NCBI GenBank assembly: GCA_022539475.1
Contig: VCMS01000187.1
Span: 189,376-253,375, forward strand
Origin: Gracilaria domingensis
Lineage: Eukaryota > Rhodophyta > Florideophyceae > Gracilariales > Gracilariaceae
Direction of reading: 5' to 3'
DNA length: 64,000 bases
Position 1 is the stretch's first letter. Every line of letters begins with the position of its first letter. Position numbers and translations under genes: made by a program. The notes beneath the pieces were generated by a model. That model was given only the letters and a program-made list of their open reading frames with translations. It was not told where the DNA came from and did not search any database. Shown in pieces: positions 31,081 to 61,666 of this stretch.

Positions 31081-31322
31081 CAGCCACGCGGCCCGCAATT
31101 GCCGCAGCCGTCGCGCCTCGGCAGCGCGACGGCAGGGCGAAGGACATCGTGCTCTCTGGCGCGCCGCCGTGCGGGGCGGCGCGCGTCTCGAGAGTTGTAA
31201 GAGGCAGGGAGAGAAAATTGCAGCTTCCACGCCGCACTTTCCTTATCTTCCCGCCGAGATCAGGAAAAAAATCGGGAGAGGGGGTGTCTTAGGGAGTCCC
31301 AGGACACACCCCCAGAAACGCC

Positions 31323-31692: not shown

Positions 31693-32681
31693 TGTAGAGC
31701 AAAACCCTGCGCTAAGCGCGATGGGGAATCTCCACTAGGATGTCCGAGTCCTACTCCCTGGATGGGATAGAAACAGCGGTAGAACCCTCTGTCCGTGCTC
31801 GAGTCGCGAGACAAGCCGGGTGTAAGACCGGAGACGGTGACTGGATATACCTACAGAGGTGAGATGCAAAGAACGGTGTAGATCCAGAGGTGGAGTGTGA
31901 TCCGAACCTGGAGAGATGGAGAAAAAAGGGGACCGTGCCAACGGTGGAAAGCTCACGGTGCAACCCACCGGAGCGGAGCTACGGACCGTGCCAACCGGCG
32001 GAAACAGGTCCGATAGCGGAGCGACGCACAAACGCGTGCCAAAAATATACCCAATACTGGGGCGGAAGCAATACCTGAACCAGGTGAACGGGTGACAACA
32101 ACAGTCACGAAAGTGAACAACAAAATACAATGACAACAACAATGGACCGATACCACGGTAGATATAACAAAGATTCCAAAGAGGGCAAGATGCAAGCTTC
32201 CTAAGTGACCCTGAGGGGTAGTAGTGCCGAAACCAATCGTGGTTACTCTCCGAGGGGAGTGGTAAACCTACGTAGGCAGCTGTCTACTATAGCCCGATCC
32301 TGAACAGGACGCGACTCAGTTGTCCATTTACTCGTCGGCTCCAGGGTGAGATCACCCCAGCATATATACTATTACTACTACGGTATCTACAATGCACACC
32401 TCCCGAGGGTCATACACGTGGACGACCCACTGTCAGGGTGCGGGGTATTCCCCAACGGGCGTGGCACAAATATCTAACTAGCCAGCTCGACCACGTGGCC
32501 TACTATCACACCCACTAGGCACTTCCCATGCAGGGTCTACCTATTAAGGGTCCAACCAAACCATCCCAACAATACCCAAAATTAAAGGGAGTTTTCATAA
32601 CTTAGCCACGTCACCGGCCATCGGTACCATCTCATTATGAGAACCGTGATGCATCCGATATCGGAAAGCCGTTGCTCCACA
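31693..32681 (-). repeat. 3' LTR of element A
   Basis: 989 bp with TG...CA ends; matches 43010-43998 throughout my reading, and open frames inside both copies are letter-for-letter the same. Confidence 0.95.
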
Positions 32682-32697
32682 TCTCCCCCTCCTTAGG
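32682..32697 (-). promoter_or_regulatory. polypurine tract of element A
   Basis: On the - strand CCTAAGGAGGGGGAGA abuts the 3' LTR, the position of the plus-strand primer in LTR retroelements. The same CTAAGGAGGGGGA core recurs inside pol at 36506 and 39696. Confidence 0.85.
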
Positions 32698-32742
32698 TTC
32701 GAGCGCGAGCGCGAGCGCGACGGCGAAGTACCGACATCGGGA

Positions 32743-32750
32743 GTATAAAT
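32743..32750 (+). promoter_or_regulatory. candidate TATA box for the antisense ORF
   Basis: GTATAAAT directly precedes the ATG at 32751, 62 bp inside the LTR border. If it works as a TATA box, transcription would start about 25-30 bp downstream and the first usable ATG would be 32898. A GAGCGC-repeat patch lies just before it. Confidence 0.35.
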
Positions 32751-34808
32751 ATGACGCCCCCTCAGGGTTCTACCGACCACTTGGTTCTTCCACGCAAGCG
32801 GCTTTTGCCTCCGACTTCGGATATAACTCCTCCTTCTCCTCCGATACCTCGGCGTTCGCTGCCAGTCTCAACTGCTCCTTCTCCTCCCTTAGCAGGAATG
32901 AATCCGAACCCGTTCCATACCAACCCGCTCCCGGGGAACTCGTCGTCAGCTCCGCAAGCGGCGTCTGAGGTGCCCTCGGGCAGTGCGTCACAACAAAGAC
33001 ATCCTCCTCAAGGCCCCTCCCAATACTTTGGTGGGTTTCAGTCAGCTCCTCTCCCTCAAGGGAATCCGTACGGTGGTCCGCTCAACCAACCCTACGCGGG
33101 GTACAACCATCTCGGCTTCTTCCCTTCTCAAGCGCAAGCTCCTGTCCCGCAAGCGGTGGCTCCTTTCAGCTTCTACGAGGCGTATCCCCATCCGGGTGCT
33201 CCTCTTCCGATGCCTCCGGCTCCTCCAGTTGCTCCTACTCAGCAGGCTTTCGATCCTAACGCCATTGCTTGGAATGCAGAGCAGGCTGTCCCGTTGACGG
33301 TGAACCCCCGTGGGTGGATTAGTCGTGAGTCCCTCGTGAATCGGGATATACGCCGCGAGGGCCTTATCTTCTCCCGCGCGCCGTGGTTCCACCCGACAGC
33401 GGTTGCCGATGAGGCTCTCATCGATTCTTACGCCGTGAACGGAATGCTCCCAGGTGGGATCCCCCGAGATGCAGTACGCTCCCGCGAGTGGCGAACCCGC
33501 ATTGCGGTAGAACCTCACTTGCTCCGATGTGAACGCGGGGAGTCCCTTGACCAAGCGCGTGGGGAGATGGCTCGTTTGGCTTACTCCAGGGTTGGAAGAT
33601 TGCGATATGATCATCCGATTCCGGCAGAATTCGACTTCGACGTGTCGCACTATCGTACCTACGGGGAGGTTTCATATGGCAACGCGTTGGCAGAGTTTCC
33701 GGAAGCGGAGCATCGGTATCACTTGGGTGAAGTGGATCCTGATATCCTCCTGTGGAGTCGTCCCTTGCTGAGGGCAGAGTTCCGATACCTGTCACGGAGT
33801 AGGCGTCACAACCGTGATCTCTATGATTTCGAGAGGCGGGTCCGGTTTGAGCGGAATGCGCGCTCCCGTCGGGGACTTCTGATTCCGTATCCAAATTTGG
33901 AGGTCGATCGTTTGCGCTTCGATGCCTTACCGTCCCGATACGTGGGCCTTCCATCGTGGTGGAGTCGGGTAGAGGTCCCTGCGGGGTGTTTTGCTGAACT
34001 CCCGCCGAGCATCTACTATATCGGCTCGCGGTTGATAGACAATCCCGACTCGGGCTATTGGTCGTTGGTACTCGCCGAGTGGGCTGCCCGCGTCGCGGTT
34101 CACCTCCTGTGGGATGTCTATGATCACTTCCGCTTGTGGTATCTTCCTCCAAATTTGAGGTGGCTCCTTCGAAGGATTGATCTCGTTACCCCCTTGGGTT
34201 CCGAGGCTAACCAGGAAGAGGTTGGGGAGTTGTTGGATGTAATCGACAGGGTCGATTGGGACCGAGTTCCGGTAGCTTGGCAGCCTGACAGGCGACAGCG
34301 TGTCCGCGACCGATCACCGGGGCGAATTTCCACCCGTTCCGGGGTCTGGGTGTACTACGACCCGTGGGAGCGCCAGCTCATCTCTCAAGAGCAAGCGAAC
34401 GCGATGGCCGCACTTCCCCGCGCTATGCCGGTAGGTCACCCAGTTGGGTTTGTGTTCCCTGAGGACTATGCCGTGCCCTCGGATGTCCCTGATCCAATGG
34501 TGGATAATGATGAGATCGCCGTCGTTGCCGGAACAGGCCAACTCACTGGCATTCCGAACACGGACCCGAACGCAACTGCGGTCCCGACGGAGGGCGCTCC
34601 TGCCCCTGAGGGATGGTCCTTGATAGCTCCCACCGCACAACCGGCAAATTGGGCCGGAAGCGTGGCTTCCCTCCGGGCCGATCTCCAGGCTCATGGCGTG
34701 CCAATCCCTCCGGGCGTGAACACCATCGCAGGGCTAGCGGCCCTCGCGAGCGAGTACTTCTCACAGAATCCCAACGCGGGAAGCGGTGCTCCCTCCACTG
34801 GCGGTTAG
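32751..34808 (+). CDS. antisense ORF of element A (aORF), unknown protein
   Basis: Up to 685 residues on the strand opposite to gag and pol, between the chromodomain ORF and the 3' LTR. The first 170 residues are Pro/Ser/Gln-rich and look disordered. Residues 190-530 form a compact Arg/Tyr/Trp-rich domain (WISRESLVNRDIRREGL; RLRYDHPIPAEFDFD; GYWSLVLAEWAARVAVHLLW). The tail is Pro/Ala/Gly-rich. Start could be 32751 or, behind the TATA-like box, 32898 (MNPNPFH). Element B has a decayed homologue in the same antisense place. No family recognised. Conservation at protein level suggests a real product, perhaps acting in packaging, regulation or host interaction; this last part is speculation. Confidence 0.75.
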   Translation: MTPPQGSTDHLVLPRKRLLPPTSDITPPSPPIPRRSLPVSTAPSPPLAGMNPNPFHTNPLPGNSSSAPQAASEVPSGSASQQRHPPQGPSQYFGGFQSAPLPQGNPYGGPLNQPYAGYNHLGFFPSQAQAPVPQAVAPFSFYEAYPHPGAPLPMPPAPPVAPTQQAFDPNAIAWNAEQAVPLTVNPRGWISRESLVNRDIRREGLIFSRAPWFHPTAVADEALIDSYAVNGMLPGGIPRDAVRSREWRTRIAVEPHLLRCERGESLDQARGEMARLAYSRVGRLRYDHPIPAEFDFDVSHYRTYGEVSYGNALAEFPEAEHRYHLGEVDPDILLWSRPLLRAEFRYLSRSRRHNRDLYDFERRVRFERNARSRRGLLIPYPNLEVDRLRFDALPSRYVGLPSWWSRVEVPAGCFAELPPSIYYIGSRLIDNPDSGYWSLVLAEWAARVAVHLLWDVYDHFRLWYLPPNLRWLLRRIDLVTPLGSEANQEEVGELLDVIDRVDWDRVPVAWQPDRRQRVRDRSPGRISTRSGVWVYYDPWERQLISQEQANAMAALPRAMPVGHPVGFVFPEDYAVPSDVPDPMVDNDEIAVVAGTGQLTGIPNTDPNATAVPTEGAPAPEGWSLIAPTAQPANWAGSVASLRADLQAHGVPIPPGVNTIAGLAALASEYFSQNPNAGSGAPSTGG

Positions 34809-35241: not shown

Positions 35242-35490
35242 CTACCCCACCATCGCATTGTCCAACGTTGGAGGCAATGGTGTCCGAGACCGGCGATGAT
35301 ACGACAAGACCTTGGACCTAGGGAGGTGTTCAATTGGCTCCCAAGTGTCCTCCTCTGGGGAATAGCCGTACCAACGGACTCTATACAGTAGCTTCCCTTC
35401 GGGGCTTTTCTCGTGTTCCACGATACGATCTACCACGAATTCCTGTGGGTATACGCCATCCTTGGCATCTCGTGGTGCTTCTCCCGACAT
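35242..35490 (-). CDS. chromodomain protein of element A
   Basis: 83 residues from ATG at 35490, in its own frame about 700 bp after the integrase stop. The chromodomain (VYPQEFVVDRIVEH ... YRVRWYGYSPEEDTWEPIEHLP) has the aromatic and acidic positions that bind methylated histone tails. In other chromoviruses it is fused to integrase and targets insertion to marked chromatin. Here it is separate, as in element B, and could be reached by splicing or made on its own. The frame is open further upstream (to 35622) without a known domain. Confidence 0.75.
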   Translation of the reverse strand: MSGEAPRDAKDGVYPQEFVVDRIVEHEKSPEGKLLYRVRWYGYSPEEDTWEPIEHLPRSKVLSYHRRSRTPLPPTLDNAMVG

Positions 35491-36194
35491 TGGGCAGTGA
35501 TGTCCAGTGGTACCCACGCGGGTTAGTGGTCCTTGGAGGCGTTGAACCGATCTTCGGGGCGGTGGACAGGTGGACTTCGGTCTTCTCAAGCCGTCCTGAC
35601 GGAGTGCGCTAACTCCCGACACGGGCGTCCAATTGCCTCACAAGTGAGCTCAACCGAAAACTCTCGATCTCCGGAGTCCGGCGAGCTCCTTTCTTTCCCA
35701 AACGGGCGGCCAACCGACGTACGGTAGCGTCCGTTTTGCGGAACCACTTTCACTTTGGCCGCAGGAGAGCCGTTGCGACGGAGAAGTAGCCTACAGCACT
35801 CCCTGTGCAGGGCGGCGGAACGCTGGGCCACGGCGCATATCCGGCCGTGCACTCCATTTTCATTGGATGGTGGCGCGCGCGTGTGTGCCACACATCCCGT
35901 GAACGGTATCTACAGTGTCAGTTTCCGGCAAGCGGTCGCTAAGCGGCGGGCACCACTCTCCAGCAATGACATGGGATTACAGTATTCAATCTCGAATCTC
36001 CCGCCATAGGGCTGCGCATGCGCACTGCGCGCGGTGCCATTTACCGTAATTCCGGGTCCGACGCACTATAGCGTTCCGTCTGCTAAGCAGCGCCCTTCAT
36101 GGGACTTCTCCCCTTCCTGACCAAGGCTTTCCAGCACAATCCACAAGGATTCTTGTCTTCTTAACTCTCCCACTGCGGGCCATTCCCAGGTAGG
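35491..36194 (-). other. spacer between pol and chromodomain in element A
   Basis: No conserved domain. Open frames here do not align clearly with the equivalent 60974-61666 stretch in element B. May contain splice or re-initiation signals for the chromodomain ORF. Confidence 0.35.
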
Positions 36195-39100
36195 CTATGC
36201 GTCACTTTCCATGCCGCTTCGTCCCGCGAAGGGGTCAGCGGATACTGCACGTTCGCGCGAGCGAGTTATAGCGCGTTCCAGCGACTTGGATTGCATCCCA
36301 ACGGGGCCACTAACATCCTTAGCAGCAGCACTCCCAGCAGGGGATTCTTCACTTCTTCTGACTTCGTTCCTCGCCGAGGTTTCGGAATCACGCGACGTAG
36401 CGCCAGCGCGATCGTTCCCAGTGGGGGATTCCATCTCACTCTGAGACTCAGCACCTCGGGTAGGTCCAGCGGATGCCGGAGCAACCGGAGCGCGATTTAC
36501 ACTGTCCTCCCCCTCCTTAGGGTGCGATACGGCTTCCGCATCTCGCGCCAATACCGTAGACGAGGGGTGAATCTCATGTGACTCAGTAGAGGGTGTAGGT
36601 GTAACCCGTGAGAGTCCGGGGTTATCCTTGAGCAACTCTGTTGTTTCAGGCAAGTCAGCGAGACCGCGCTGCGGGTGGGGCAAAACTGATGGACGGTTTG
36701 CTGCAGTACCCGTCTGTTCGGTAACTTGACGCGACGATGGACCGTTTCCGGTATCCGGCGCGGCGATAACTTCCTGTATAGGGCTCGGTGCGCGATATAC
36801 TCGATCTCGCGATACCCGCTCGTGCTGATTATCGATATCAAGCACGACGGTAGTCTCCTGTATGGATACAACCCGATAGGGGCCACTGGCGATTGGAGAG
36901 AGCTTATGGCGCTTCTCCTTCTCAGGATTGTAGTACTCCTTCCTGAGGAACACATAATCACCAACCCGAAGCTGCGGTAGCGGCCTACGGATTCGGCTAT
37001 CGAAATTGCGCTTGTAGGCGAGTTGGGCTTTCTCCATAGAGCGCTTAGCCATAGGCACCATCGTGGTTAACCATTTCTTCCACGCTTCGCGGTGTAGCCT
37101 CGGTGTCGAGTATTCGTCCATGGTTGGCTGGGCCTCAATGGCAAGAGGAGGTGGTCTCCTTGACAGGACGAACTCGAAAGGGGACAACGACGTTACCCGA
37201 TGTACCTGGGTGTTGTACGCGTATGTAATGGCGTCTGTGTACAAATCCCAAGTCTTGGGGTGTTCCGCAACGTAGGATCTCAATGCACCAAGAATGGTTC
37301 GGTTAAATCTCTCTGCCTGACCATTAGTTTGGGGGTGATACGTTGTTGTGAACAGATTCCTAATGTCGAGGATGCGACAAACGTCTTGGAAGAATTTCGA
37401 CGTGAACTGGGAGCCGTTGTCGGAGAGCACGTGTACCGGTGGTCCATAGACAAAGACCCAGTGGGTAAAAAACGCCTGAGCCACAGCAGCAGCAGTTATC
37501 CGCTTGAGCGGCACAGTCCGTACCAGCTTTGAGAAGCGATCGGTGATCACCAAGAGGTATTGATTCCCTTGCGAGGTTTTGATCAATTCGCCAAGAATGT
37601 CAATGGCGACAGACTCTAGCGGCGCCCTTGCAGGGAATAACTTCAACTTCTTTGAATACTTCCTCAGCTTGATGTCGTTTTTGGCACATTCCTGACAGGA
37701 TCGACGTACTGCATAGCAGTCGAATGCCATTGCAGGCCAGTAAAAATCCTTTCTCAATGTGAGATACAACTTTCTTCCTCCCGGATGGGCTCCCAGCTTC
37801 ACATAGTGAGAGAGGTGAAGAACTCGACTCTGTAAGGAGTGCGGCACCACTATTTGTGGGTTCGGTGACACCTTTCTTATTAAGTAGCCTTGATTATTCA
37901 CCTGAAAGGGCAAGTGGTATCCACCGTTCAGACGGGCTCGTACCTGTGTACAGAAGGGATCCATCTGCTGTTCCCGTATCATCTCCTCGGGCGTGATGGG
38001 TATAAATGACCCGGTACCCGGTTCAGTGGATCGTGTGACAAGTATATCGTCACAAACGTCATCCGTCACAGTTTCCATACTCCCCTCGAGGTCGCCAACC
38101 ATAAAGCATGGGATGTCGGCGTCCTCTGTAGGCTCGGCTTCAGCTGATGTGCCCAAGCGGGATAGGGCGTCCGCCTGGAGGTTAAGGGAGCCTTTCTTGT
38201 ACACTACTTCGAAGTCGAATTCCGACAGTCGGAGTCTCCACCGCATCAGGCGTCCCGATGGTTCGGTGATTTCCATCAGCCAGCGAAGGCATTTGTGGTC
38301 GGTGTGTACACGAAAGTGGGTCCCCATCAAATATGGTCTGAGTGTCGACAATGCCCAGACTACGGCAAGACATTCCTTCTCGGAAACTGAGTAATTCCGC
38401 TCATGGACGTTTAGCGATCTCGACCAGTACCCAATAGGGTGTCGTCCCCCGGTCTCATCGGTTTGAAACAAAGCGCACCCAACCTGGTTTGCGCTAGCGT
38501 CAGTGTCGACCTCATAGGGTAACCCAGGTTTGGGGAGAGCCAGAATTGGCGGAGACGTCACGGCTTCAACCAATGCCGCGAACGCGGAGGCCTCTTCGCC
38601 TCCAAAGGGGTGCAATTCAACAGGTTTTCCTTTCGTAAGGAGCTTGTTCAACGGTGAAGCAATGTCCGCGAAGTTCGGAACGAAACGTCGGTATACATTA
38701 CACAGTCCTAAGAAGGATCGCAGCTCTGTTTGAGTTCTCGGGTGTTTCGCCTCCTTCAAGGATTTGACCCGCACTTCATCGACTGAAAGCTTTCCGGGAC
38801 GGATTATGTGACCCAGATACTTGACCGATTCGGTGAAGAACTCGCACTTCTTGAGTTTCAATGTTATCCCTGCGTCACGCAGTACTCTCATAACGTCCCG
38901 CACATGGGTCAGATGATCATCCAGATTGTTGGAAAAAACGACGATATCGTCCAGATACACCAAACATGTGGTCCACTTAAATCGCGCCAGTAGGATATCG
39001 ACCGCACGCTGGAATGTAGCGGGTGCATTAGTTAACCCAAAGGGCATTCTCCGGAAACGGTATAGGCCTTGATGGCATACGAACGCCGTCTTATTCCGGT

Positions 39101-39653
39101 CTTTCTCCCTAATGGGAACCTGCCAGTATCCCCAGTTAGCGTCGAGTGTGGTGAACACGTTCGCGCTCCCAAGAGAATCGATATATTCGTCCATCCGGGG
39201 TATCGGATATACATCTTTCACTGTCACCGCATTCAACTTTCGGTAATCGATACAAAATCTCCAAGATCCATCCGGTTTCGGAACTAGCACTACTGGTGAC
39301 GCCCAAGGGGATTGAGCGGCCTCAATAACGCCAGCCCGCAACATCTTCTCCACTTGAGACTTCTCTTCCTCCCGAGCCTTCGGTCCGGCCCGATAGGGGT
39401 GTTGTGCAATCGGCCGAGTGTTCGGAAGTAAGTCAATGCAATGCTCAGTTATTCCAATCGTTCCTAGAGTTCCGTCCCACATGGGAGTGAATTCCCGCAG
39501 CATCTCGCGAAGCTTCTCCCGATGGGATTCCGGTACATGCTCCAAATCAAGCTTCATCAATTCCTCGACAGGATCCTTCAAATCACTGCCAGGTGGCACA
39601 GGACTAACCTCTAGAGGTCTCGGATTGTCTGAACCCGAGTCTTCTTGGGCTTC
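36195..39653 (-). CDS. pol: Pol of element A: reverse transcriptase, RNase H, integrase
   Basis: In frame with the protease ORF, separated from it by one TAA (39654-39656). About 1150 residues. RT spans roughly residues 75-310 (SWRFCIDYR, VYLDDIVVFS with the YLDD active site). RNase H follows (VDTDASANQVG, SEKECLAVVWAL, VHTDHKCLRW: D, E, D). Integrase has an HHCC finger (HYVKLGAHPGG..CQECAK), then catalytic D, D and E (IDILGEL; LSDNGSQFTS; NGQAERFN) and a GPY/F-like module (GPYRVVSI). A long Pro/Ser/Glu-rich tail contains HPKEGEDS, whose DNA is a polypurine-tract copy. All catalytic residues are present. Confidence 0.9.
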   Translation of the reverse strand, partial: EAQEDSGSDNPRPLEVSPVPPGSDLKDPVEELMKLDLEHVPESHREKLREMLREFTPMWDGTLGTIGITEHCIDLLPNTRPIAQHPYRAGPKAREEEKSQVEKMLRAGVIEAAQSPWASPVVLVPKPDGSWRFCIDYRKLNAVTVKDVYPIPRMDEYIDSLGSANVFTTLDANWGYWQVPIREKDRNKTAFVCHQGLYRFRRMPFGLTNAPATFQRAVDILLARFKWTTCLVYLDDIVVFSNNLDDHLTHVRDVMRVLRDAGITLKLKKCEFFTESVKYLGHIIRPGKLSVDEVRVKSLKEAKHPRTQTELRSFLGLCNVYRRFVPNFADIASPLNKLLTKGKPVELHPFGGEEASAFAALVEAVTSPPILALPKPGLPYEVDTDASANQVGCALFQTDETGGRHPIGYWSRSLNVHERNYSVSEKECLAVVWALSTLRPYLMGTHFRVHTDHKCLRWLMEITEPSGRLMRWRLRLSEFDFEVVYKKGSLNLQADALSRLGTSAEAEPTEDADIPCFMVGDLEGSMETVTDDVCDDILVTRSTEPGTGSFIPITPEEMIREQQMDPFCTQVRARLNGGYHLPFQVNNQGYLIRKVSPNPQIVVPHSLQSRVLHLSHYVKLGAHPGGRKLYLTLRKDFYWPAMAFDCYAVRRSCQECAKNDIKLRKYSKKLKLFPARAPLESVAIDILGELIKTSQGNQYLLVITDRFSKLVRTVPLKRITAAAVAQAFFTHWVFVYGPPVHVLSDNGSQFTSKFFQDVCRILDIRNLFTTTYHPQTNGQAERFNRTILGALRSYVAEHPKTWDLYTDAITYAYNTQVHRVTSLSPFEFVLSRRPPPLAIEAQPTMDEYSTPRLHREAWKKWLTTMVPMAKRSMEKAQLAYKRNFDSRIRRPLPQLRVGDYVFLRKEYYNPEKEKRHKLSPIASGPYRVVSIQETTVVLDIDNQHERVSRDRVYRAPSPIQEVIAAPDTGNGPSSRQVTEQTGTAANRPSVLPHPQRGLADLPETTELLKDNPGLSRVTPTPSTESHEIHPSSTVLARDAEAVSHPKEGEDSVNRAPVAPASAGPTRGAESQSEMESPTGNDRAGATSRDSETSARNEVRRSEESPAGSAAAKDVSGPVGMQSKSLERAITRSRERAVSADPFAGRSGMESDA
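36506..36520 (-). promoter_or_regulatory. internal polypurine-tract copy 2 (element A)
   Basis: On the - strand CTAAGGAGGGGGAGG, the same core as the 3' polypurine tract, encoding KEGED in the pol tail. Could prime an extra plus strand. Confidence 0.5.
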
Positions 39654-40690
39654 TTACGTATTAACGGCTTCAACAACTTGCGGTTCGGCGCTCTCTTCCC
39701 CCTCCTTAGGGTCAGACACTCCGAGAACCTTGGCGATAGGTATTTTCGTCGGAACGACCGCAGTCGGGTGTGGCAGCACAGTACCAATCACTTGGTTCTT
39801 TACCAGCCACTGAGTGGATTTTCCCAAGTTGGCGACCATGACCTTGAAGGGTTGATCTGGTTGGATAGTGACCACTCCATTAGCGAGAGCGATTTGGCGC
39901 TGTTCATATAAAGCTGGTAACGGTTGTATCGTGTGGAGGCCCCATTGTTTGGTGTTGACGTCGACCCATACCTGGGATTCTGGGGGCAACTGCACGGACT
40001 TCGTGACGTGTAGTTTTGTCGACCCCATGCCATCGTTGGAGGCTTGTTGCGCGGCCGGCAGCGGTACGTGCTTCCGCGTAGCGGCTCGCAATGGTTTCCG
40101 AACAATCGGCAGTATCGACCCGTCTTCCATTTCCACTTGGCGTTTCCGCGGACGGATGGCTTCCACGAACCGATCGCAGAAGTCACAACCGAAAATAATC
40201 GGTGCAGCCAATGAGTCACAGACGACAAAATCAAGTTGTACCAAACAATTTCCTAATCGTACAAGGAGTGTAATATAACCAGCCGTTCTCAACGGATTAT
40301 TGTTCGCATCGGCGAGATTTAGAGCAGGGCCGAAACGGATTGTCTCCCGAAGAGTGGGCGGGATTAGCTTCTTGTTGATCAAGTTGGGGGCGGCTCCTGT
40401 ATCCAGGACAGCTAATTGCCTAACCATGAATTGGGTGGACAGGCCAAGGTCGGCATACACCTTGTAGTTCCTCTTGGCCATTACCAGGATTCTATCCGGA
40501 GCACGGAATTTTCGGGACCGTACCCACGGGCGACGAAGAACACCACAGTGTTCCGAATCTACGTCAGTGGCAGCCATCTTCCTTGTTAGGATTCTAACAG
40601 CCGGGGAGTGAAGCGGAGGCGCCTCGGGCGTCTTCAGCTTCGGCTCAGAAGACGCCCCTCCCGTTGGGGAGACTCCCAAGTCTAGTTTTT
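39654..40690 (-). CDS. protease domain of element A Pol, -1 frame to gag
   Basis: About 343 residues, entered by a -1 shift at the gag end (near 40685); there is no good ATG. The aspartic protease motif is LDTGAAPN, with the flap and second hydrophobic-Gly segment AAPIIFGCDFCDRF. It cleaves Gag and Pol in particles. The frame ends with a TAA in a poorly conserved linker just after SDPKEGEES; the next codon continues the RT frame without shift. In element B protease and RT are one open frame, so the TAA is probably a CAA-to-TAA change, or a readthrough site. Confidence 0.8.
39696..39710 (-). promoter_or_regulatory. internal polypurine-tract copy 1 (element A)
   Basis: On the - strand CCTAAGGAGGGGGAAG, encoding PKEGEE, upstream of RT. 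Equivalent to 57502-57515 in element B. Confidence 0.5.
40626..40690 (-). promoter_or_regulatory. gag/pol -1 ribosomal frameshift signal (element A)
   Basis: The heptamer G AAA AAC sits directly before the gag TAG. Downstream are a small hairpin (CTCCC/GGGAG with a 4-base loop) and a 10-bp perfect stem GGGCGTCTTC / GAAGACGCCC with a 12-base loop. Pol is open in the -1 frame through this point. Element B has the same arrangement with a compensating base-pair change. Confidence 0.65.
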
Positions 40691-42793
40691 CGGAGCAGGA
40701 CCAGCCTGTCGGGGCCGATTCCCGTCCTGGGCACCAACTTGATCACCGTTCGCGGATTCAGCTCTTCCCTCCATTTTCTGGCCTACCACAGGAGCGGCTT
40801 GATTCGCCATAGATCCGCCACTCAGATGAACTGCCATTGCGTGCTTTGCGCCTTCGTAGGAAGTTCTCGGCACACGAGCTTGGTTCTCCGGGGAGAGAGA
40901 TTCGAACTGAGCGATGATTTTCGACCTTTCCCGCGAAGGGAGCGTACACTGCGTTGAGATATGCCCATATTGGTAACATTCATAACAGATAACTGGGGTT
41001 GAATAGTCCTGTGGACCTCTATCCACACGACTCTGCGGGGTGTTATCCCTCCATCCTGGGCGAGTAAACCTCATGCCACGACCTCCATAGGGAATTGGCG
41101 CTGCCGGAACCCGGTGTCCTTGCGCGTAGAATGCGGGATCCGTTTCCGAAGACGGGACAGAGGTGGATGGGAGGTCAGAAGTATCCATAGAGTCGGGGTT
41201 GCTACCGACGAGGTTAACGTTATCGTGATCCAGATTGGAGCCATTCCCGTTAACATGGGCGGAAGAATAATCCGATTCTTCGGCGAAGAGTACCTTACGA
41301 GGTTTCGTTCTAGAGGGATGCCTAGCTCGGAGCGTGTCACCTTCGGCTTGGGCATACTGTACTAATTCCCGGTAGGTCATCTTCCTATTATTCTCCCGAT
41401 GTCGGGCGACAAGTGCCCGTATTTGGGGATCCAACCCATCCACGAACAGGGAACATCTCTCTCCAGAGGAATGTACGTTACCGCAGCGGTGGAAAGCCTT
41501 ATTCAGGCGCGTTGAATAAGCTGTTTCCGTTTCTCCCGGACGTTGCTTCGTATCCCTTAAGGCGGAAGTCGCCTTTTGGATGGCATGACCAGTAGCATAT
41601 GACCTTAGGAGGTAGTGTACCGCTTCGGGCCAACATGTAACTCCCCCTTCCGAGGCTCTTGACGATCCGCGGACGGAATTAAACTGATCCTCTGCCAAAC
41701 CTTTGAGGTAATACGGGAGTGCTACATACGCCTGGCCCTCGCTCATTCCGAGTATATCGGCTTCTTGAACAAACCTTGCGAGGAAGTCCAGGACCAGAAT
41801 AGGGTCCTCTCCTGCAAACTCTCTCTTATTCAGAGTAACGCCGAGTTTTCGGATGTAGTCCCGGACCTTTCCGGTTCCCCTTGAGGTCCGAACTTCGGAG
41901 GTATCCTTAAGTCGATAATAGCGATATGAAAGCAACTTCCGATACAGCGGATTAGATGGCTTCAACTCCTTCAAGCCAGGGTGCTTCTTCCCCTTCTCCC
42001 GGGTGCGGATTGCTCCCTGAGAGGTAAAAGTAGCCTTGGACCGTGACTTCGATGAACGGGGACGCCGACGTCGGCTATCATCCGAAGAGTCGGAGGACGA
42101 CGACGAAGACGAACTGTCCGAACTACTTCCGGAGTCGGAGTCAGACACATCCGAGTAATTACGGGAATCCTTCATGGACCTACGACGGCTTCTCCTAGTG
42201 GATTGGCGAACTGAACTTTCGTTCTCCGAACTATTCCGCCCGGCGGCTTCTGCTTCCTCGTCCATCCGAATGGTGGCCTCGAGTGTGTCCAAGCGTGCGT
42301 GGATCCGTTCCACGGCGGCTTGAGTATCCTCTCGTACGAGGCGGTTTTCCTCCACATAAGCCCTTGGGGAGCCGAAGCACTCCATGAGTGAATTCATCTC
42401 CTGCCTCAGGATACGCACCTCTCCTGAGACGTCCTTATCTAGGAGTTTATAAACCTGTCGACGGAGTTCCTCGACTGACTCAATGAGGGATATGTGGGCA
42501 GCGTTAGCACTACTAAGGCGAGTGCCCAGGTTACTGTACTTCTGAGAGTCAAGTCTTTCCGGCGGTGCGGCAGAGGGTGTCTCCACGACTGGAACTTCCT
42601 CTTCAGGTTGTGGTACTGCCTGCGAAGGGAGTTCCATAATCTCCTGTCCATCGACTGATGCATTCCGGTTCTCGGAGTTGTCGCGATTACTTCCCGATCC
42701 AGGGACCGATATTCTCGAGCGGGTACCGCCTGACCGCGCAGGGGCATTCGAGGTAACCGATCTTCCTTTCGAGGACGTAGCTCGGCGTGGCAT
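40682..42793 (-). CDS. gag: Gag of element A
   Basis: 703 residues from ATG at 42793 (MPRRATSSKG). The frame is open a little further upstream, but only from a non-ATG codon. The N-terminal third is charged and predicted coiled (EELRRQVYKLLDKDVSGEVRILRQ) and is followed by an Arg/Ser-rich linker. The capsid-like core includes KELKPSNPLYRKLLSYRYYRL and a retrotrans_gag-like stretch (EGGVTCWPEAVHYLLRSYATG). A single CCHC knuckle (CYECYQYGHISTQC) near residue 610 binds RNA. The end PAPKN* carries the frameshift heptamer. It would build the virus-like particle. Confidence 0.9.
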   Translation of the reverse strand: MPRRATSSKGRSVTSNAPARSGGTRSRISVPGSGSNRDNSENRNASVDGQEIMELPSQAVPQPEEEVPVVETPSAAPPERLDSQKYSNLGTRLSSANAAHISLIESVEELRRQVYKLLDKDVSGEVRILRQEMNSLMECFGSPRAYVEENRLVREDTQAAVERIHARLDTLEATIRMDEEAEAAGRNSSENESSVRQSTRRSRRRSMKDSRNYSDVSDSDSGSSSDSSSSSSSSDSSDDSRRRRPRSSKSRSKATFTSQGAIRTREKGKKHPGLKELKPSNPLYRKLLSYRYYRLKDTSEVRTSRGTGKVRDYIRKLGVTLNKREFAGEDPILVLDFLARFVQEADILGMSEGQAYVALPYYLKGLAEDQFNSVRGSSRASEGGVTCWPEAVHYLLRSYATGHAIQKATSALRDTKQRPGETETAYSTRLNKAFHRCGNVHSSGERCSLFVDGLDPQIRALVARHRENNRKMTYRELVQYAQAEGDTLRARHPSRTKPRKVLFAEESDYSSAHVNGNGSNLDHDNVNLVGSNPDSMDTSDLPSTSVPSSETDPAFYAQGHRVPAAPIPYGGRGMRFTRPGWRDNTPQSRVDRGPQDYSTPVICYECYQYGHISTQCTLPSRERSKIIAQFESLSPENQARVPRTSYEGAKHAMAVHLSGGSMANQAAPVVGQKMEGRAESANGDQVGAQDGNRPRQAGPAPKN

Positions 42794-42984
42794 ACTGCAG
42801 CTTGCCAACCGAACTCGGGGGCTATTACGCGAACAAGTGCGAGACTTCCAAACTGCAGCCAAAAAAGGGGTGAGAGATCTCGTATCACAGCCAGGTGAAC
42901 GGGGCCGCGACCTTCAATCTCCCAAAAAGGGAATTCCAAGTGTCCAGATTCCAAGCGACACAACAAACCCAGTTATGGTCCTCC

Positions 42985-43009: not shown

Positions 43010-43998
43010 TGTAGAGCAAAACCCTGCGCTAAGCGCGATGGGGAATCTCCACTAGGATGTCCGAGTCCTACTCCCTGGATGGGATAGAAACAGCGGTAGA
43101 ACCCTCTGTCCGTGCTCGAGTCGCGAGACAAGCCGGGTGTAAGACCGGAGACGGTGACTGGATATACCTACAGAGGTGAGATGCAAAGAACGGTGTAGAT
43201 CCAGAGGTGGAGTGTGATCCGAACCTGGAGAGATGGAGAAAAAAGGGGACCGTGCCAACGGTGGAAAGCTCACGGTGCAACCCACCGGAGCGGAGCTACG
43301 GACCGTGCCAACCGGCGGAAACAGGTCCGATAGCGGAGCGACGCACAAACGCGTGCCAAAAATATACCCAATACTGGGGCGGAAGCAATACCTGAACCAG
43401 GTGAACGGGTGACAACAACAGTCACGAAAGTGAACAACAAAATACAATGACAACAACAATGGACCGATACCACGGTAGATATAACAAAGATTCCAAAGAG
43501 GGCAAGATGCAAGCTTCCTAAGTGACCCTGAGGGGTAGTAGTGCCGAAACCAATCGTGGTTACTCTCCGAGGGGAGTGGTAAACCTACGTAGGCAGCTGT
43601 CTACTATAGCCCGATCCTGAACAGGACGCGACTCAGTTGTCCATTTACTCGTCGGCTCCAGGGTGAGATCACCCCAGCATATATACTATTACTACTACGG
43701 TATCTACAATGCACACCTCCCGAGGGTCATACACGTGGACGACCCACTGTCAGGGTGCGGGGTATTCCCCAACGGGCGTGGCACAAATATCTAACTAGCC
43801 AGCTCGACCACGTGGCCTACTATCACACCCACTAGGCACTTCCCATGCAGGGTCTACCTATTAAGGGTCCAACCAAACCATCCCAACAATACCCAAAATT
43901 AAAGGGAGTTTTCATAACTTAGCCACGTCACCGGCCATCGGTACCATCTCATTATGAGAACCGTGATGCATCCGATATCGGAAAGCCGTTGCTCCACA
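43010..43998 (-). repeat. 5' LTR of element A
   Basis: Same 989 bp as 31693-32681. On the - strand a TATATATG near the middle (about 43677-43684) is a possible promoter TATA box. Confidence 0.95.
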
Positions 43999-53239: not shown

Positions 53240-54213
53240 TGTAGAGCAACGCAATTTGCGTGGTTATCAGGATGATGCGCCTCATATACTCAGGGGAGTG
53301 ATACGAGGATGCACTCGAAGAGTTATGAGTTGGACCCAATTTTGGCGGTTACTTTTGGAATGGCTTTCCCACAGTTACCTGTAATCAGGGTTGCCATTGC
53401 TGGCCAATACCGCTAGGTGGACGCGTGTACTACACCACCGTGTGTGTGCATATTACGGGACAATAGGTAGTGCACCTGAGGTGCCTGACACTGGGCTAGC
53501 CACGTGTACGGACCCCTGCGGGTGTGCACCACGTGTACATAGTTAGTTTAGACCTACTTAGGTGAGCTCGACCTCGTCGTCGCGAGCACCTTTGTAAAGT
53601 GAACCCGAGCACTTCTAAGTGAACTCTTTGTCGAGTAGCGCTCTCCTGAGTGGTCTCTACACGAGTGAGGCTCTGGCACCAACCGCCTACGTGGGTTATC
53701 ACTCTTGCGAGTATAGCCACGTCTGGTTACGGTGGTCCTACCCTCTCGGTACCTTTGAGGAACATCTGTCGTTGATGTCGGGACCTGAGGGTCGTACCGA
53801 GGAGGTATAGGACTAGATTACAAAGTCATCCGACTCTGTATAGAGTTTTGCCGTGTTTACGGAAACCCGTGCATTACCGTTGGAGGATCTCGCCCCGCTC
53901 CGGGCACAGTGCCGAGGAGGCCCTACCCGTCGCGTGTGGGTGTTGGTTGGTTGTTGTTTTCTGTTGCTTTCCCTCTCGGGACTACACCTGTCGTTGGTCG
54001 TGTTCCATCGTTGCCGATACCACCCCGTCTCTGGAGTTTCTCATCGTTTCCTCACCACGTGGCCTAGCACCTCTGTAGGTATAGCCAGTTGCCCCTTCGG
54101 CCTTACAACCGAGTTACGGTGGTACAGAGGGCTCTGTCACTGGTCTGCCATCTCTCACGAGAGCGGACCTTCGGACAGTCTGGTGGGTTCCACTCTCCCG
54201 AGTTTGCCCCACA
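53240..54213 (+). repeat. 5' LTR of element B
   Basis: Starts TGTAGAGCAACG (element A forward LTR starts TGTGGAGCAACG) and ends CCCCACA three bases before the primer-binding site; 974 bp. Confidence 0.8.
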
Positions 54214-54216
54214 AAG

Positions 54217-54460: not shown

Positions 54461-56529
54461 ATGCCGCAACCGCCTCGAGGTTCTCGAGCTGGTTAAGCGC
54501 GGTCGTCAGCTGCGGTTCCACCAGTTGCACCGACGTCTCGGTCTATCCCAGATGAGGCGCAACCTCTTGAGGTCGTACCCCGCCCCCGGAGAACGCGTGC
54601 AGTTACGGAAGCACCTAAGGAAAATGTGGGTTCTGCTCAACCCGTCGTTGAGACACCATCCATGGTTAACCCTAACGCTGCTACCGTAGCCGAGTTGGCT
54701 AGGTTGGAATCCCGCTTGGATATTAATCACGCTGCTCACGTGGAACTCCTACAGGATGTTACCTCGTTGAGGACGTAGGTTGATAATGCCCAGGTGAGGG
54801 ATGTCTCAGGAGACTTGCGTCTTCTGAGAAGGGACGTGAATTCCATTATGGAAAATCTGGGTACCCCAGACGTCTTCGTCACGGAGTACCGGGCATTTGT
54901 CGAGGAAATGCGCACCGATATCGGTCGAATTCGTTCGCGCTTGGAAACGCTGGAGGATACAATCCGTATGGATGAAGCTGTGAACGCACAGGTTCCTCAA
55001 GGAAATCCATCTGCGGATGAAGACCATCGTTCGGTGAAGCAGAAACGTCGACACTCAAAACGAGTTCACTATGATTCGGATTCATCGCGCTCTGACTCGA
55101 GCGCCATGACTGAAGACAGTTCGTCAGATTCATCTGATAGTGATGAAAACCGTCATAGGTCACGTTCGACACGGTCGAAAGCGACGCAGTCTACTCAGGC
55201 AGTGATGAGATCACGTGTGAAAGGACGGCGCCACTTGGGACTCAAAGAGTTAAAGCCGACGGACCCGCTCTACACAAAGCTGTTGTCGTACCGCTATTAT
55301 CGGTTGGAAGATGTTACTTCGAATCGCTCCTCGCGAGGAACCGGTAAGGTGAAGGACTACATTCGAAGGTTGAATGTTACCCTTGAAACAAGGAAGTTCT
55401 CGGGGGCAGATCCTATCCTTATCCTGGATTTCCTTGCCAGGTTCGTCGAGGAGGCCGATATACTCGGTATGAGTGAAGCACAGGCATATGTGGCACTGCC
55501 GTACTTTCTAACAGGGACTGCGGAAGATCAGTACAACTCAGTTCGAGGAACCTCGAGAGCCTCGGAAGGAGGAGTCACGTGTTGGCCGGAAGCCGTGAAC
55601 TACCTTCTCAGGTCGTACGCGACTTCCAACGCGATTTACAGCGCTACTCTTGCTGTTCGCGACACTAGACAGAAGAGTGGAGAATCTGAAACGGTTTATT
55701 CAACGCGGTTGAACAAAGCGTTTCACCGATGTGGTAATGTGTATTCCGCACAGGAGCGGTGTACCATGTTTGTTGATGGTTTGGACCCCACCATTCGGTC
55801 ATTGGTCGCTCGCCGAAGCGAGAAAAAACGCCGAATGACGTACCTAGAGTTGGTTAATTACGCCCAGGCGGAAGGAGAGACGTATCGAGCCCGCAACCCG
55901 GGGCAGCGCCGCTCGAAAGCGCTACTCGTGGAGAGTTCGTCACCATCGATGTCGGTTTTGCGACGTGAAACCGCTGTCGGTGATGCTGATAACGTCCACT
56001 TCATTGGAAGTAACCCCGATTCTTACGGATCTACGGACCTGCCGTCAACCTCGATTCCGAGCACGGAAGAAGACCCCGCATTGTATGCCCAAAGTGTCCG
56101 GGTGCCTGCAGCCCCGCTGCCTTACGCTAACAATTCGTCGCGTCTGAACCGTCCAGGGTAGAAGGACACAGCACCACAACGTCGAGAGGACAATCGCCCT
56201 CGCGACAAACCGGCCTCGGTCATATGTTACCAGTGCTACCTTCCAGGTCACGTATCGACGCAGTGCGTATTTCCGCCGTCGCACAGGCCGAAAATTATTG
56301 CGTATTACGACGCCCTCACGCCCGAGGAAAAGGAATCTGTCCCACGAAAGGAATATGATAAGGCCAGAGCTGAACTGGGATTACCGGTTCCGGTCTATGA
56401 TCAGCCCTCCGTTCCGGCACAGGCACCTTCGAACCAGGTTCAAGGCGAAGTACCCACGCATGGGGTTCAGTTAGGCCCCCGAACGGAGTTCACGCACCGA
56501 ATTCGGTGAGCCTCGTTCAGAAAAACTGA
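54461..56529 (+). pseudogene. gag: Gag of element B, with premature stops
   Basis: ATG at 54461 (MPQPPRGSRAG) followed within 12 codons by TAA; a second stop TAG at about 54776 and a third at 56159 interrupt a frame otherwise colinear with element A Gag. KELKPTDPLYTKLLSYRYYRL and EGGVTCWPEAVNYLLRSYAT mark the capsid-like core. The CCHC knuckle CYQCYLPGHVSTQC lies beyond the third stop. The last two stops sit where element A has Gln and Trp, so both fit transitions. A one-base shift near the end is needed to reach the conserved terminal KN* at 56521-56529. Non-functional as it stands. Confidence 0.85.
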
Positions 56530-56590
56530 CTTCGGGAGTTTCCCCTACGGGAGGGGCGCCTTCCGAGCCGAAGTTGAAGGCGCCCGAGGC
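56518..56590 (+). promoter_or_regulatory. gag/pol -1 ribosomal frameshift signal (element B)
   Basis: G AAA AAC at 56520-56526 followed by TGA; a small hairpin TCCC-CTAC-GGGA (56541-56552) and a 10-bp stem GGGCGCCTTC / GAAGGCGCCC (56554-56563 with 56576-56585, 12-base loop). Relative to element A one pair changes from T-A to C-G on both sides. Confidence 0.65.
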
Positions 56591-57501
56591 GTCACAGCTT
56601 CGCTCCCCAGCTGTTAGAATCCTTTCAAGGATAGCGGCTACAACTGACGTGAGCTCAGAACACCTTTCGGTTCTACGTCGTCCGTGGATACGGTCCCGTA
56701 ATCTCCGTATTCCGGAAAGAGTTCTTGTGATGGCCAAGAGAAACTACAAAGTTTATGCCGATCTTGGCTTGTCTAACCAGTTCATGGTTCGACAGTTGTC
56801 TGTGTTGGATACAGGAGCTGCACCGAACCTGATTCACCTTGAGTTGGTGTCACCCGCGCTACGGGATGAAATTCGTCATGGTCCAGGTTTGGACATCACG
56901 GATGCCAACAATAACCTGTTGCGTACTCTTGGGTACATACCTCTCATGGTAGGATTAGGAACCTGTATGGTTAGAGTGGATTTCATGGTTTGCAAAAGCA
57001 TTGCCGCACCGGTGATACTCGGTTGTGACTTTTGTGATCGTTTTGTTGAAGCGATTCGACCTCGAGCTCGAGTTGTTACCATGGATGATGGTTCCGAAAT
57101 ACCGATTGTAAGGAAACCGCTAAAGAGAGCTACACGCAAGCGCGTCCCGCTCCCTGCTGCACAGGAAGTTCCAACCGTCGACCCGGTATCATCTAAGCTC
57201 CATGTGGCTCATGCCATCGCAATCCCTGCGCAATCCCAAATTTGGGTCACCATAACTACTAAGCAGTCTGGTCTACGTGTCGTACAACCATTGCCATCAT
57301 TGTATGATCAGAAGCAACTCGCTTTGGCGAACGGAGTAATCTCGGTGGAACCCGACAAACCATTCAGAGTTTTGGTCGCCAACTTTGGCACAACCCGACA
57401 GTGGTTAGCTAAAAACCAAATCCTTGGTACCACTCTCCCACACCCTGCTGCTATCGTACCGACGAAGATACCCGTTGCGGATGTTCTCGGTATAACCGAT
57501 G

Positions 57502-57515
57502 CTAAGGAGGGGGAA
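57502..57515 (+). promoter_or_regulatory. internal polypurine-tract copy (element B, upstream of RT)
   Basis: CTAAGGAGGGGGAAGG encoding AKEGEG, at the same place as 39696-39710 in element A. Confidence 0.5.
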
Positions 57516-60500
57516 GGATCAGCGGAAACCGCTTTTACCGCATCGGTTACCCCGGCGAGCGAAGTTACCGAATCGCTGGCACCCACCGAGGGTAAAGCGT
57601 TGCCACCAGGAACGGAAGATACAGACCCTGTCAAGGAACTGGAACAGTTGAATTTTGATCATGTACCTGAATCTCATAGAGGTAAGCTAAGAGAAATGTT
57701 GAGGGAGTTCACACCCATGTGGGATGGATCCCTTGGGACAATTGGAATCACGGAACACCGTATTGACCTACTTCCAGGTACTAGCCCCATTTCCCAACAC
57801 CCATACCGGGCTGGTCCCAAAGCTAGGGAAGAAGAGCAATCTCAGGTTGAGAAGATGTTACGCGCTGGCGTCATAGAGGCGGCTCAATCCGCTTGGGCCT
57901 CACCCGTGGTGCTAGTTCCAAAAGCGGACGGATCATGGCGATTCTGTATTGATTACCGTCGTCTAAATTCGGTCACTGTCAAAGACGTTTATCCCATACC
58001 CAGGATGGACGAATACATTGACTCGCTTGGGAGTGCTACAGTGTTCACCGCCTTGGATGCCAATTGGGGATACTGGCAAGTTCCGATCCGTGAAAAGGAT
58101 AAGGACAAAACTGCTTTTGTGTGCCACCAAGGTTTGTACCGGTTTAAACGAATGCCGTTAGGATTAACCAACGCACCGGCTACGTTTCAACGTGCTATCG
58201 ATATCCTCTTGGCTCGATTCAAGTGGAAGACCTGCTTGGTGTATCTTGACGATATCATCGTGTTCTCCGATAACCTTGATGACCACTTAACACACGTCCG
58301 GGACGTCATGAGAGTCCTCAGGGACGCGGGCATTACGCTGAAACTCAAGAAGTGCGAGTTCTTCACAGATTCTGTCAAATACCTAGGGCATATCATTCGA
58401 CCTGGACAGCTCTCAGTTGACGCAGTTCGCGTGAAGTCGCTGAAGGAAGCGAAACACCCTACGACACAAACGGAACTCCGCAGTTTTCTAATGTATATCG
58501 GCGTTTTGTCCCGAACTTCGCAGATATTGCGACCCCCCTTAACCACCTTTTGAGAAAAGGTCAACCAGTTCAATTGGAACCCCTAGGCGACGCGGAAGCG
58601 TCTGCCTTTTCGGCATTAATTGACGCAGTAACGTCACCGCCAATCTTGGCTTTGCCTAAGCTAGGACTTCCATTCGAAGTAGACACTGACGCCAGTGCAC
58701 ACCAGGTTGGTTGCGCCTTGTTTCAGGTCACGGAAGACTGCGTGAGACATCCAATTGGATACTGGTCGCGATCCTTAAACGTACACGAACGTAACTACTC
58801 AGTTTCGGAGAAAGAGTGCTTAGCCGTTTTATGGGCTCTAACTACACTGAGGCCATATCTTATGGGCAACCATTCTACGGTACATACGGACCACTCATCT
58901 CTCCGATGGCTCATGGAAATCTCGGAACCATCAGCACGCTTGATGCGTTGGCGCTTGAGGTTATCGGAGTTCGATTTCACAGTTACGTACAAAAAAGGAA
59001 AGTTGAATCTGCAGGCAGATGCACTCTCCCGCTTGGGAACAAATGCAGAAGCGGCACCAGTTGACGATCTGGACATACCATGCTTTATGGTGGAAGAACA
59101 AGCAGGTTGGGTCGAATCTTTGTCGGATGACATCTGTGACGACATCCTGCTCACTTCGGAGAAGTTGGATCCCTTGACTGGATCTTTTGTACCCATCACT
59201 TCCGAGGAGATAATCCGAGAACAGCAAACGGATGAGTTTTGTACGCGAATTCGCCCTCGTCTCAATGGAGGAGATCGTATACCTTTTCAGGTTAACGATC
59301 AGGGGTACCTGGTTAGGTTGGTTGAAGTGTATACCCAAATTGTGGTCCCATACTCGCTGCAAAATCGTGTGTTGGTCATGACACACTATGTGAAGGTAGG
59401 AGCCCACCCAGGAGGTCGAAAACTATACTTGACCCTGCGTAGGGATTTTTACTGGCCGTCAATGGCATTGGACTGCTACGCAGTACGACGCTCTTGCACC
59501 GAGTGCGCTAAGAATAACGTGAAACTCCGTAAGTACTCGAAGAAGTTAACGCTGTTCCCAGCACGGTCTCCTTTGGAGTTTATCGCTATCGATATCTTAG
59601 GTGAATTGATCAGAACCGCAAGAGGTAATCGATACCTTCTGGTTATCACCTATCGGTTCTCTAATTTGGTACGGACAGTCCCGCTGAAACGGATTACGGC
59701 CACCGTGGTTGCACAAGCTTTTGTCACCCACTGGGTCTTTGTGTACGGTCCACCGGTTCATCTATTATCAGATAACGGTTCACAGTTCACGTCGAAGTTT
59801 TTCCAGGACGTCTGTCGGATCTTGAGTGTCAAGAATCTATTTACGACCACCTACCACCCCCAAACAAATGGTCAGGTAGAACGATTTAACCGTACCATGC
59901 TGAATGCATTAAGATCTTATGTGGCAGATCATCCTAAGGATTGGGACTTGTATACGGACGCTATTACGTATGCGTACAACACCCAAGTCCACCGGGTAAC
60001 GAAGCTAGCACCTTTTGAGTTGGTATTGTCAAGAGTACCGCCACCGGTTGCAATCGAGGCTCAAGAAACGCTTTCTACGTACCCGTCTGTTGGGTTATAC
60101 AGGAACGCTTGGAAGGATTGGTTAACCAAAATGGTACCGGTCGCTCGCACAGCGATGGATAAGGCGCAGGCCGCTTATAAGCGCAACTTCGATGCGAAGG
60201 TTAAGACCCCATTACCAAAAGTCAAACCAGACGATATGGTATTTCTCCGCAAAGAATACTATAATCCGGAGAAGAAACGCCGCCACAAGCTCTCGCCTAT
60301 CGCGGAAGGAACCTACAAGGTTATTTCCGTCACGGACGATACCGTAGTATTGGATATCAATAATCTCCACGAACGGATATCGTTAGACCGTGTCGCGCTG
60401 GCCCCACCACCCTACGTTCACGTTAACACCCAACTGGGTGAAGCAACAGGGGTCGAACAGGTCGTATCTTCGCGCCCTGCGACTCTCCGCCCTGATCGCG

Positions 60501-60623
60501 GCTTATCGGATCTACCGAAGTCAGAATCACCCACGCCGGTAGCACAACCCGTTGCGGGAGACGAAGAGGAAAACTCAACTAGAGTTGAACCCCCACCGGA
60601 CGTCGTGGCTCCCGTGCGACCGC

Positions 60624-60640
60624 CTAAGGAGGGGGAGGAA
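60624..60640 (+). promoter_or_regulatory. internal polypurine-tract copy (element B, pol tail)
   Basis: CCTAAGGAGGGGGAGG encoding PKEGEE, at the same place as 36506-36520 in element A. Confidence 0.5.
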
Positions 60641-60973
60641 AGTACGGAACCCGTTACACCGGCGTCGCACGGTCACACTGTGTCGCAAGGTACCGCAACC
60701 AATCTCGCAGTCTCCACCGATAGCATTGTGGTGCGCCGAGGGGCTGTACCTCGTGGTGATACTCCGTCGAGTTCGTCGAGCAATGCGCTGGAAACGACAC
60801 GACCCACCCAGGGGGTACACACCGCTGTGGATAACGTAACCCCGTCGGGAACACCACAACTGAGTGAGGTCACCACCCGCAGAGCGGAGAAGACAGTATC
60901 TGTAGACCCGGGCTTTCCGGGGAACGCAGAACCGCAAGCGGTAGATCAGCTCAATGTTACCGACCGGTGTTAA

Positions 60974-61666
60974 CCACGCCGTGGTATGAGGAAACGAGAA
61001 GTCGTGCTTACCCGCGTATTATTTGGGAAAACAACCTTGGAAAGGTGAAGTACGAAGTACGAGTTTGGAAACCGTCGATAGTGCACCCACGCCGCGTGGC
61101 AGAGGACTCATGACACACCCAAGTGGAGAGTAACACGTTGTGTGACGTGGTGACGTATGGAAAGCACCGCCGACGCGGGGAACTGCTGACAGTAAGTCGC
61201 GTGCGCGAGTACTACACGCGCACGGTGCACGATGTACGGTCGCCAACCGTAGGCGAACGGACACCTGTTAGGGTAACTCGTGGCTCACACGTGCCATCGC
61301 CTGGCCAACCAGAAGGCCGCGATATGCACCGTGATTGGTCAATCCGCCTCCATTGCGCACGAGCGAGACCCTGCCCGTTCTCCGTCGCACGGACGATCCT
61401 TCTGGATAGCAAGAGGGAGCTCAGAATCCCGAAGCTACCGTTGGACGGTCGGAAGCTCAACCAAAACGAGCCAAAGCTCGTCGGACTCAAGAAGGAGAGT
61501 ACTTCAAGAAGAACCTTTCAGGTTGAAGATTGGACGCTCCTGGTGTAAGTTGTAGTTGTCGCACAGCGAGGAACTCCTAGTGAGTCGTGACTGGTTAAGT
61601 CCAAGAGGAACCCCTCTAGAGGTTAGCCGGCCACCACCTCGCCACCTTCGAAGGTACGAAACCACA
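60974..61666 (+). other. spacer between pol and chromodomain in element B
   Basis: About 690 bp, almost the same length as in element A (about 700 bp) but without clear sequence match. Open frame 61123-61548 has no domain. Confidence 0.35.

Follow-up and report, generated by a model that had tools for sequence, protein, structure and literature searches.

An antisense accessory ORF under purifying selection in two families of chromodomain-bearing Ty3/gypsy elements of Gracilaria domingensis

Accessory genes in antisense orientation have been described in LTR retrotransposons mostly from plants, and in plant Gypsy elements antisense ORFs of unknown function are known between pol and the 3' LTR (PMC7264820). 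According to the same source, gene23 of maize Grande is transcribed from a promoter of its own and encodes a nuclear product, while the antisense promoter of HTLV sits in the 3' LTR (PMC7264820). Transposase_28 (PF04195) is reported to be encoded by 97% of Retand clusters (PMC11963269). The Boty element of Botrytis cinerea is described as having an additional antisense gene, brtn (PMC7264820, PMC8365987), and the oomycete Chronos elements as Gypsy elements with a chromodomain which fall outside the chromovirus group (PMC5348765). An initial annotation of the DNA studied here had referred to antisense ORFs in a few plant lineages; such ORFs are better known than was implied and include one fungal case (PMC7264820).

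The window, i.e. the whole stretch of 64,000 nucleotides that was analysed, carries two elements of this kind, A and B. The sense order of element A is gag, protease-like ORF, pol and chromodomain ORF, after which come the antisense ORF and the 3' LTR:

31693-43998, minus strand: element A, an LTR retrotransposon with Ty3/gypsy-type pol
31693..32681, minus strand: 3' LTR, 989 bp, TGT..ACA, 100% identical to 43010-43998
32573..32750, plus strand: conserved U3 edge and spacer upstream of the antisense start, a putative antisense promoter region
32751..34808, plus strand: accessory ORF of 685 aa in antisense orientation, with the chromodomain ORF on one side and the 3' LTR on the other
35245..35637, minus strand: chromodomain ORF, apart from pol (Pfam Chromo PF00385, E 2.3e-13)
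36195..39599, minus strand: pol with RT, RNase H and integrase (Pfam RVT_1, RT_RNaseH, rve)
39654..40679, minus strand: protease-like ORF (weak gag-asp_proteas match, E 0.066)
40685..42913, minus strand: gag frame, 743 codons from stop to stop (weak zinc knuckle, E 0.02)
43010..43998, minus strand: 5' LTR, 989 bp, followed on this strand by the primer-site-like TGGTCTCCCGACTTAGAAC

The insertion of element A is recent, since its LTRs are 100% identical and a 5-bp duplication, GATGT, is found on both flanks. Element B has the TGGTCTCCCGACTTAGAAC motif at the corresponding place, behind its 5' LTR. In element A, protease and pol occupy separate ORFs (36195-40679, minus strand), whereas several other genomic copies have longer frames that stay open through pol, for up to 1594 codons. 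The insertion site is adjoined by a direct-repeat family (30829-31082) with a spacing of 32 and 63 nt, lying in an Arg/Ala-rich minus-strand frame. Elsewhere in the window, an ORF of 732 codons (25533-27731, minus strand) resembles a hAT transposase, with matches to a BED finger, DUF659 and the hAT dimerisation domain, and about 1 kb at 51080-52071 is a large imperfect palindrome, the sequence being 68% identical to its reverse complement.

Both elements were initially called chromoviruses, which are defined by a chromodomain fused to the integrase C-terminus. The chromodomain is indeed present in A and B, but in both it forms a separate ORF about 560-580 nt past the pol stop. The pol C-terminus is visible in most A-type loci long enough to reach it. 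The gap between pol and chromodomain would require splicing or separate translation, and splicing could join the two. Since the chromodomain is unfused to integrase and no RT tree stands behind the class, the status of the carriers as true chromoviruses is not secured.

The 685-codon frame opposite to gag and pol, as annotated initially, proved exact: it occupies 32751-34808 on the plus strand, with gag, protease, pol and chromodomain on the minus strand. When the element was randomised 200 times with a first-order Markov model, the longest stop-free frame averaged 196 codons and never exceeded 306, so a frame of 685 codons is not expected by chance. No overlapping sense gene was seen, the three minus-strand frames across the ORF being broken by 11, 29 and 13 stops.

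The second element lies on the other strand, and its decayed antisense ORF extends to the end of the window:

53240..54213 (ends approximate), plus strand: 5' LTR of element B, 98% identical over 53235-54215 to the 3' LTR of L041, a copy representing the usual version of the family
54794..60973, plus strand: gag, protease and pol ORFs, with pol split over two ORFs in different frames (56574-58553 and 58550-60973)
61556..61906, plus strand: chromodomain ORF, sharing 67% identity with its counterpart in A over 70 aa
62297..64000, minus strand: decayed antisense ORF, in pieces in three frames

The claim that element B has pieces of the same protein in the same antisense place was borne out by several searches. 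Using tblastn, a summed E of 3e-11 was obtained for 63950-63069 and 63036-62713 on the minus strand. A profile search of the 1983 stop-free pieces of the window returned the ORF of A and three colinear B pieces in three frames (63788-63180, E 0.00018; 63319-63134, E 0.013; 63084-62839, E 0.0076), with no matches in the reversed window, and phmmer with the window protein added the piece 62620-62297 (E 0.00024). Overall, the remnants span 62297-63960 on the minus strand. From approximately 62440 to the window end, the B copy is about 16% off L041 (257 of 1636 aligned ORF sites) with some 40 single-base indels, and the substitutions in the decayed stretch number 73, 83 and 101 across the codon positions. 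The stretch 61110-62297 is 96-99% identical to L041. At the pol end (60813-61110), the window copy and another copy, L040, each show 86% identity to L041 and numerous gaps, which makes L041 the odd one there. The divergence sets in sharply at 62440 and runs to 64000, beside a stretch of N which lies beyond the window end, next to the decayed segment (L036). Within its family the B copy of the window stands apart as an outlier, and the dead version was found in none of the 39 other scored copies. Judged from these patterns, the decayed stretch may have arisen by recombination of an old, dead segment into a younger element, or it may reflect faulty assembly close to the N stretch.

Better preserved versions of the B gene occur elsewhere in the genome. 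A search with the pol of A, in which 41 of 3903 candidates were scored, gave a second group, with 12 matches of 73-74% identity and one, C194, of 76%, and the regions downstream of three second-type matches were inspected. In L041, an antisense frame of 660 codons is open at the expected place, giving 617 aa from the ATG, and an alignment of its protein with the A protein shows 46% identity in 552 columns (E 2e-154). L040 (C484) has an interrupted antisense ORF and contains N; L042 (C194) has the chromodomain, and no ORF match was found in the 1737 bases remaining on its contig. Thus, the proposal of a gene common to two diverged elements stands, with the B family holding its own version in the same place. 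With 71 of 1344 candidates scored, the search of the genome with the L041 protein returned at least 71 matches; 51 are stop-free, two or three of these partial, and 69 are 95-100% identical. By eye, a B-type ORF lies downstream on the opposite strand in 8 of the 12 second-group pol copies; among the other four, C484 is interrupted, C179 has a DNA match and two were unseen among the matches listed. In 20 B-type copies, LTR sequence was found 75-76 bp from the start codon in every case, and a chromodomain ORF on the opposite strand in 19.

The corresponding search with the antisense protein of A returned at least 68 matches (65 of 1313 candidates scored). In-frame stops interrupt 13 of the 22 full-length A-type copies, and nine are stop-free; within the distant group L016 has no stops, and six others have 1 to 4 each. 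The ORF is firmly linked to the element: among the best 30 of at least 68 matches, LTR sequence was found at 29 loci (at L028 as a match of 31 nt at the contig end), the chromodomain at 28, and both with the ORF between them at 27. Of five more distant A-type loci, two have LTR and chromodomain, and in three the flank is too short to judge. Conversely, the antisense ORF lies 1.28-2.74 kb downstream in 24 of 28 A-like pol copies (identity at least 82%, counted without two secondary fragments of the same elements), and for the remaining four none was found downstream among the matches listed. Outside the mosaic copies L013-L015, the divergence of the ORF rises together with those of the LTR and of the chromodomain side (correlations 0.97 and 0.98 over 171 non-independent pairs).

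This linkage bears on the reading that the ORF is a recently captured host gene, or a domesticated element gene which now serves the host. Its G+C content of 59.5%, vs. 49.0% for the window, would suit such an origin, but an LTR and/or chromodomain adjoins all 30 A-type loci (the best 30 of at least 68) and an LTR all 20 B-type loci (20 of at least 71), 33 of the 68 A-type and 51 of the 71 B-type matches among the scored candidates lying outside this flank scope. A diverged single-copy paralogue may exist elsewhere in the genome, and we regard recent capture or host service as highly improbable. A capture confined to the two copies of the window, which had been named as an outcome that would overturn the initial interpretation, is contradicted by the at least 68 A-type and at least 71 B-type matches.

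The mosaics L013, L014 and L015 are of A type in their LTR and through the first two-thirds of the ORF, and nearer to the L016 type in the remainder. They share a recombination break near 34150-34500, within the antisense ORF, and provide sequence evidence for template switching between subfamilies followed by amplification.

Selection on the protein was estimated as dN/dS by the Nei–Gojobori method, with the recombinants L013-L015 (ratios of 0.17-0.28) kept out of the ranges. Between A and seven distant-subfamily copies the ratio is 0.13-0.17 (dS about 0.55-0.64), and it is 0.18 and 0.16 for the still more distant L031 and L032; the 95% bootstrap limits over these nine comparisons are 0.10-0.24. 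A ratio near 1, set initially as evidence against a functional gene, is thus not observed between subfamilies. For A and its 11 closest copies the values are 0.27-0.79, resting on 10 to 45 changes, and for five pairs inside the L016 group they are 0.38-0.72; higher ratios among close copies are expected because copies die after insertion. In a six-frame control of A vs. L016, the true frame gives 0.14, the mirror frame, which shares third positions with it, 0.23, and the other four 1.43-2.73. These four wrong frames are at 1.10 or above in seven of eight pairs, while the closest pair, A–L008, has two at 0.57 and 0.72. Of the 323 differences between A and L016, 217 fall at codon position 3, and the constraint is strongest at residues 175-420 (0.06-0.09). 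Neutral simulation from A with an equal number of changes produced a mean of 10.1 stops and a minimum of 3 in 500 runs, vs. none in L016.

The other genes provide a scale for these values. Between A and L016, the ratio is 0.126 for the protease, 0.089 for 5' pol and 0.297 for 3' pol; for the chromodomain ORF it is 0.73 (0.42 over the last 60 residues), vs. 0.20 in the comparison with L031. Since the ratios for the antisense protein are similar to those for protease and pol, it is about as constrained as the core element proteins, and the alignments show purifying selection of approximately the strength seen on the protease. Between A and B, synonymous change in the antisense ORF is saturated (pS 0.69, with pN 0.36), and the pooled pN/pS of 20 B-type copies is 0.204.

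These ratios also address the view that the antisense RNA matters and the ORF is incidental, convergent transcription producing double-stranded RNA by which silencing or copy number is adjusted. The genomic RNA is complementary to the ORF, in element A a gap of 436 nt separates the ends of the antisense and chromodomain ORFs, and a role of this type is discussed for the plant cases (PMC7264820). Against it stand selection on amino acids (dN/dS of 0.13-0.18), the third-position excess in one frame and the 46% protein identity across the families. As an explanation of the ORF this view is very unlikely, and RNA as the sole role is mostly refuted; an RNA role may coexist with that of the protein.

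The antisense ORF is therefore almost certainly a real, selected, element-borne gene. Both families retain it, the A-type being more worn, and since they keep related versions, the gene most simply predates the split of the A and B families. Since selection kept it working in two long-separated families, it probably helps the elements to multiply.

The protein begins with a Pro-rich N-terminus (residues 1-179) of very low model confidence, which is probably disordered. The core, approximately residues 180-555, is arginine-rich and helical in the predicted model (fair confidence, pTM 0.80), and the acidic C-terminus has two predicted helices, 634-647 and 659-672. As the initial annotation had noted, no domain can be recognised: comparisons of the protein or its core with Pfam, PDB and viral folds gave no match, and the C-terminal Pfam match, Thymopoietin (E 0.071), is well short of the family cut-off. 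Eleven further relatives (P0001-P0011) were found in public contigs. Lysine occurs once in the 685 residues of the A protein, vs. 10.7 expected from base composition (P 0.00025). This scarcity marks the A-type antisense proteins and is absent from pol, protease and gag of the elements; B-type proteins (9 of 617) do not maintain it, nor do all of the relatives. Lysine deserts have been tied to evasion of ubiquitylation (PMC10169902).

The location between pol and the 3' LTR is that of retroviral env, and together with the Pro-rich N-terminus it could suggest an envelope-like or particle-associated structural protein. Opposed to this are the antisense orientation, the highest 19-residue hydropathy of 1.15, with no transmembrane-like segment in the protein, the existence of a separate gag, and a core without match to viral folds. 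The protein is probably neither envelope nor structural, and we give the structural reading very little credence.

Concerning the expression of the accessory gene, the start codon lies 70 bp (A) or about 75-80 bp (B) from the 3' LTR edge, so that a promoter outside the LTR would have hardly any space. In A-type elements, the 109 bp at this end of the LTR, together with the spacer, are 88-95% identical to six distant-subfamily copies, vs. 67-71% in the three adjacent 40-bp bins upstream of this block; other LTR bins also reach up to 92%. The polypurine tract adjoining the LTR falls within 32573..32750, and conservation of the U3 edge could equally serve sense transcription or integration. An antisense promoter inside the 3' LTR is the simplest reading and, on this evidence of position and conservation, a likely one.

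One can suggest the following mechanism. As an accessory gene of a chromodomain-bearing Ty3/gypsy group, the antisense ORF would be transcribed from a promoter located at the U3 edge of the 3' LTR, an LTR which each transposition remakes. With lower confidence than for the promoter, the arginine-rich core and the C-terminal helices may bind nucleic acid, and the protein may act in the nucleus and in trans, its targets being for instance the transcription of the element, its silencing or a pre-integration stage. Nuclear action on nucleic acid seems somewhat more probable than its opposite, judged from these features rather than from any fold or domain match. Overall, a selected accessory gene with antisense expression from the 3' LTR and nuclear action in trans is the explanation we moderately favour, its last steps being those that we infer.

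A more specific function would be that of an anti-silencing factor acting in trans on host silencing, in a role like that of VANC, the anti-silencing factor of Arabidopsis VANDAL elements. It suits a gene that is non-structural, under selection and present throughout the elements, as well as the abundance of nearly identical B-family copies, but the Pfam and structure comparisons linked the protein to no factor of this type by sequence or fold, and we consider this function rather unlikely.

Compared with the known systems, gene23 of maize Grande, rice RIRE2, ORF4 of Silene Retand and bean PvRetro13 are described in the same place and the same antisense orientation, and the plant ORFs, like that of Gracilaria, as conserved and present in most copies (PMC7264820). 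The ORF shows the traits of an aORF-3R: it lies between pol and the 3' LTR, antisense to gag-pol, and is conserved in most copies listed. The antisense protein of Retand has Transposase_28, whereas a Pfam scan of 12 members of the present family at E <= 1 did not return it; moreover, Retand is described as a non-chromovirus, while the present elements bear a chromodomain. Boty, as described, is likewise a non-plant Gypsy element with an antisense gene, brtn being likened here by description only. HBZ of HTLV-1 is presented in the literature as a 3'-LTR-driven antisense gene, as proposed for the present ORF. HBZ is a bZIP protein, and no such family appeared in the Pfam results for the antisense protein. 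To our knowledge, retroviral antisense genes overlap sense genes, whereas no such overlap was seen here. It is conceivable, though doubtful, that an old antisense factor, belonging to a new family whose core is helical, is driven by the 3' LTR, counters silencing in trans and came to an HBZ-like layout independently. For Chronos, a second RNase H is described, and a chromodomain that adjoins the integrase at the 3' end of pol, vs. a separate ORF here, and the word “antisense” has no occurrences in the Chronos paper (PMC5348765).

If the promoter at the LTR edge is real, a non-retroviral 3' LTR would drive a protein gene on the opposite strand. The two families differ by about half of the residues of this protein, give clear evidence of selection on the protein itself, and the many young open copies in one genome make the function of an antisense gene testable. 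The family appears to be new, Retand being set apart by its domain and gene23, RIRE2, PvRetro13 and brtn being compared by description only. Thus, the layout is one already known from other elements, and the protein family, on chromodomain-bearing carriers, is apparently new.
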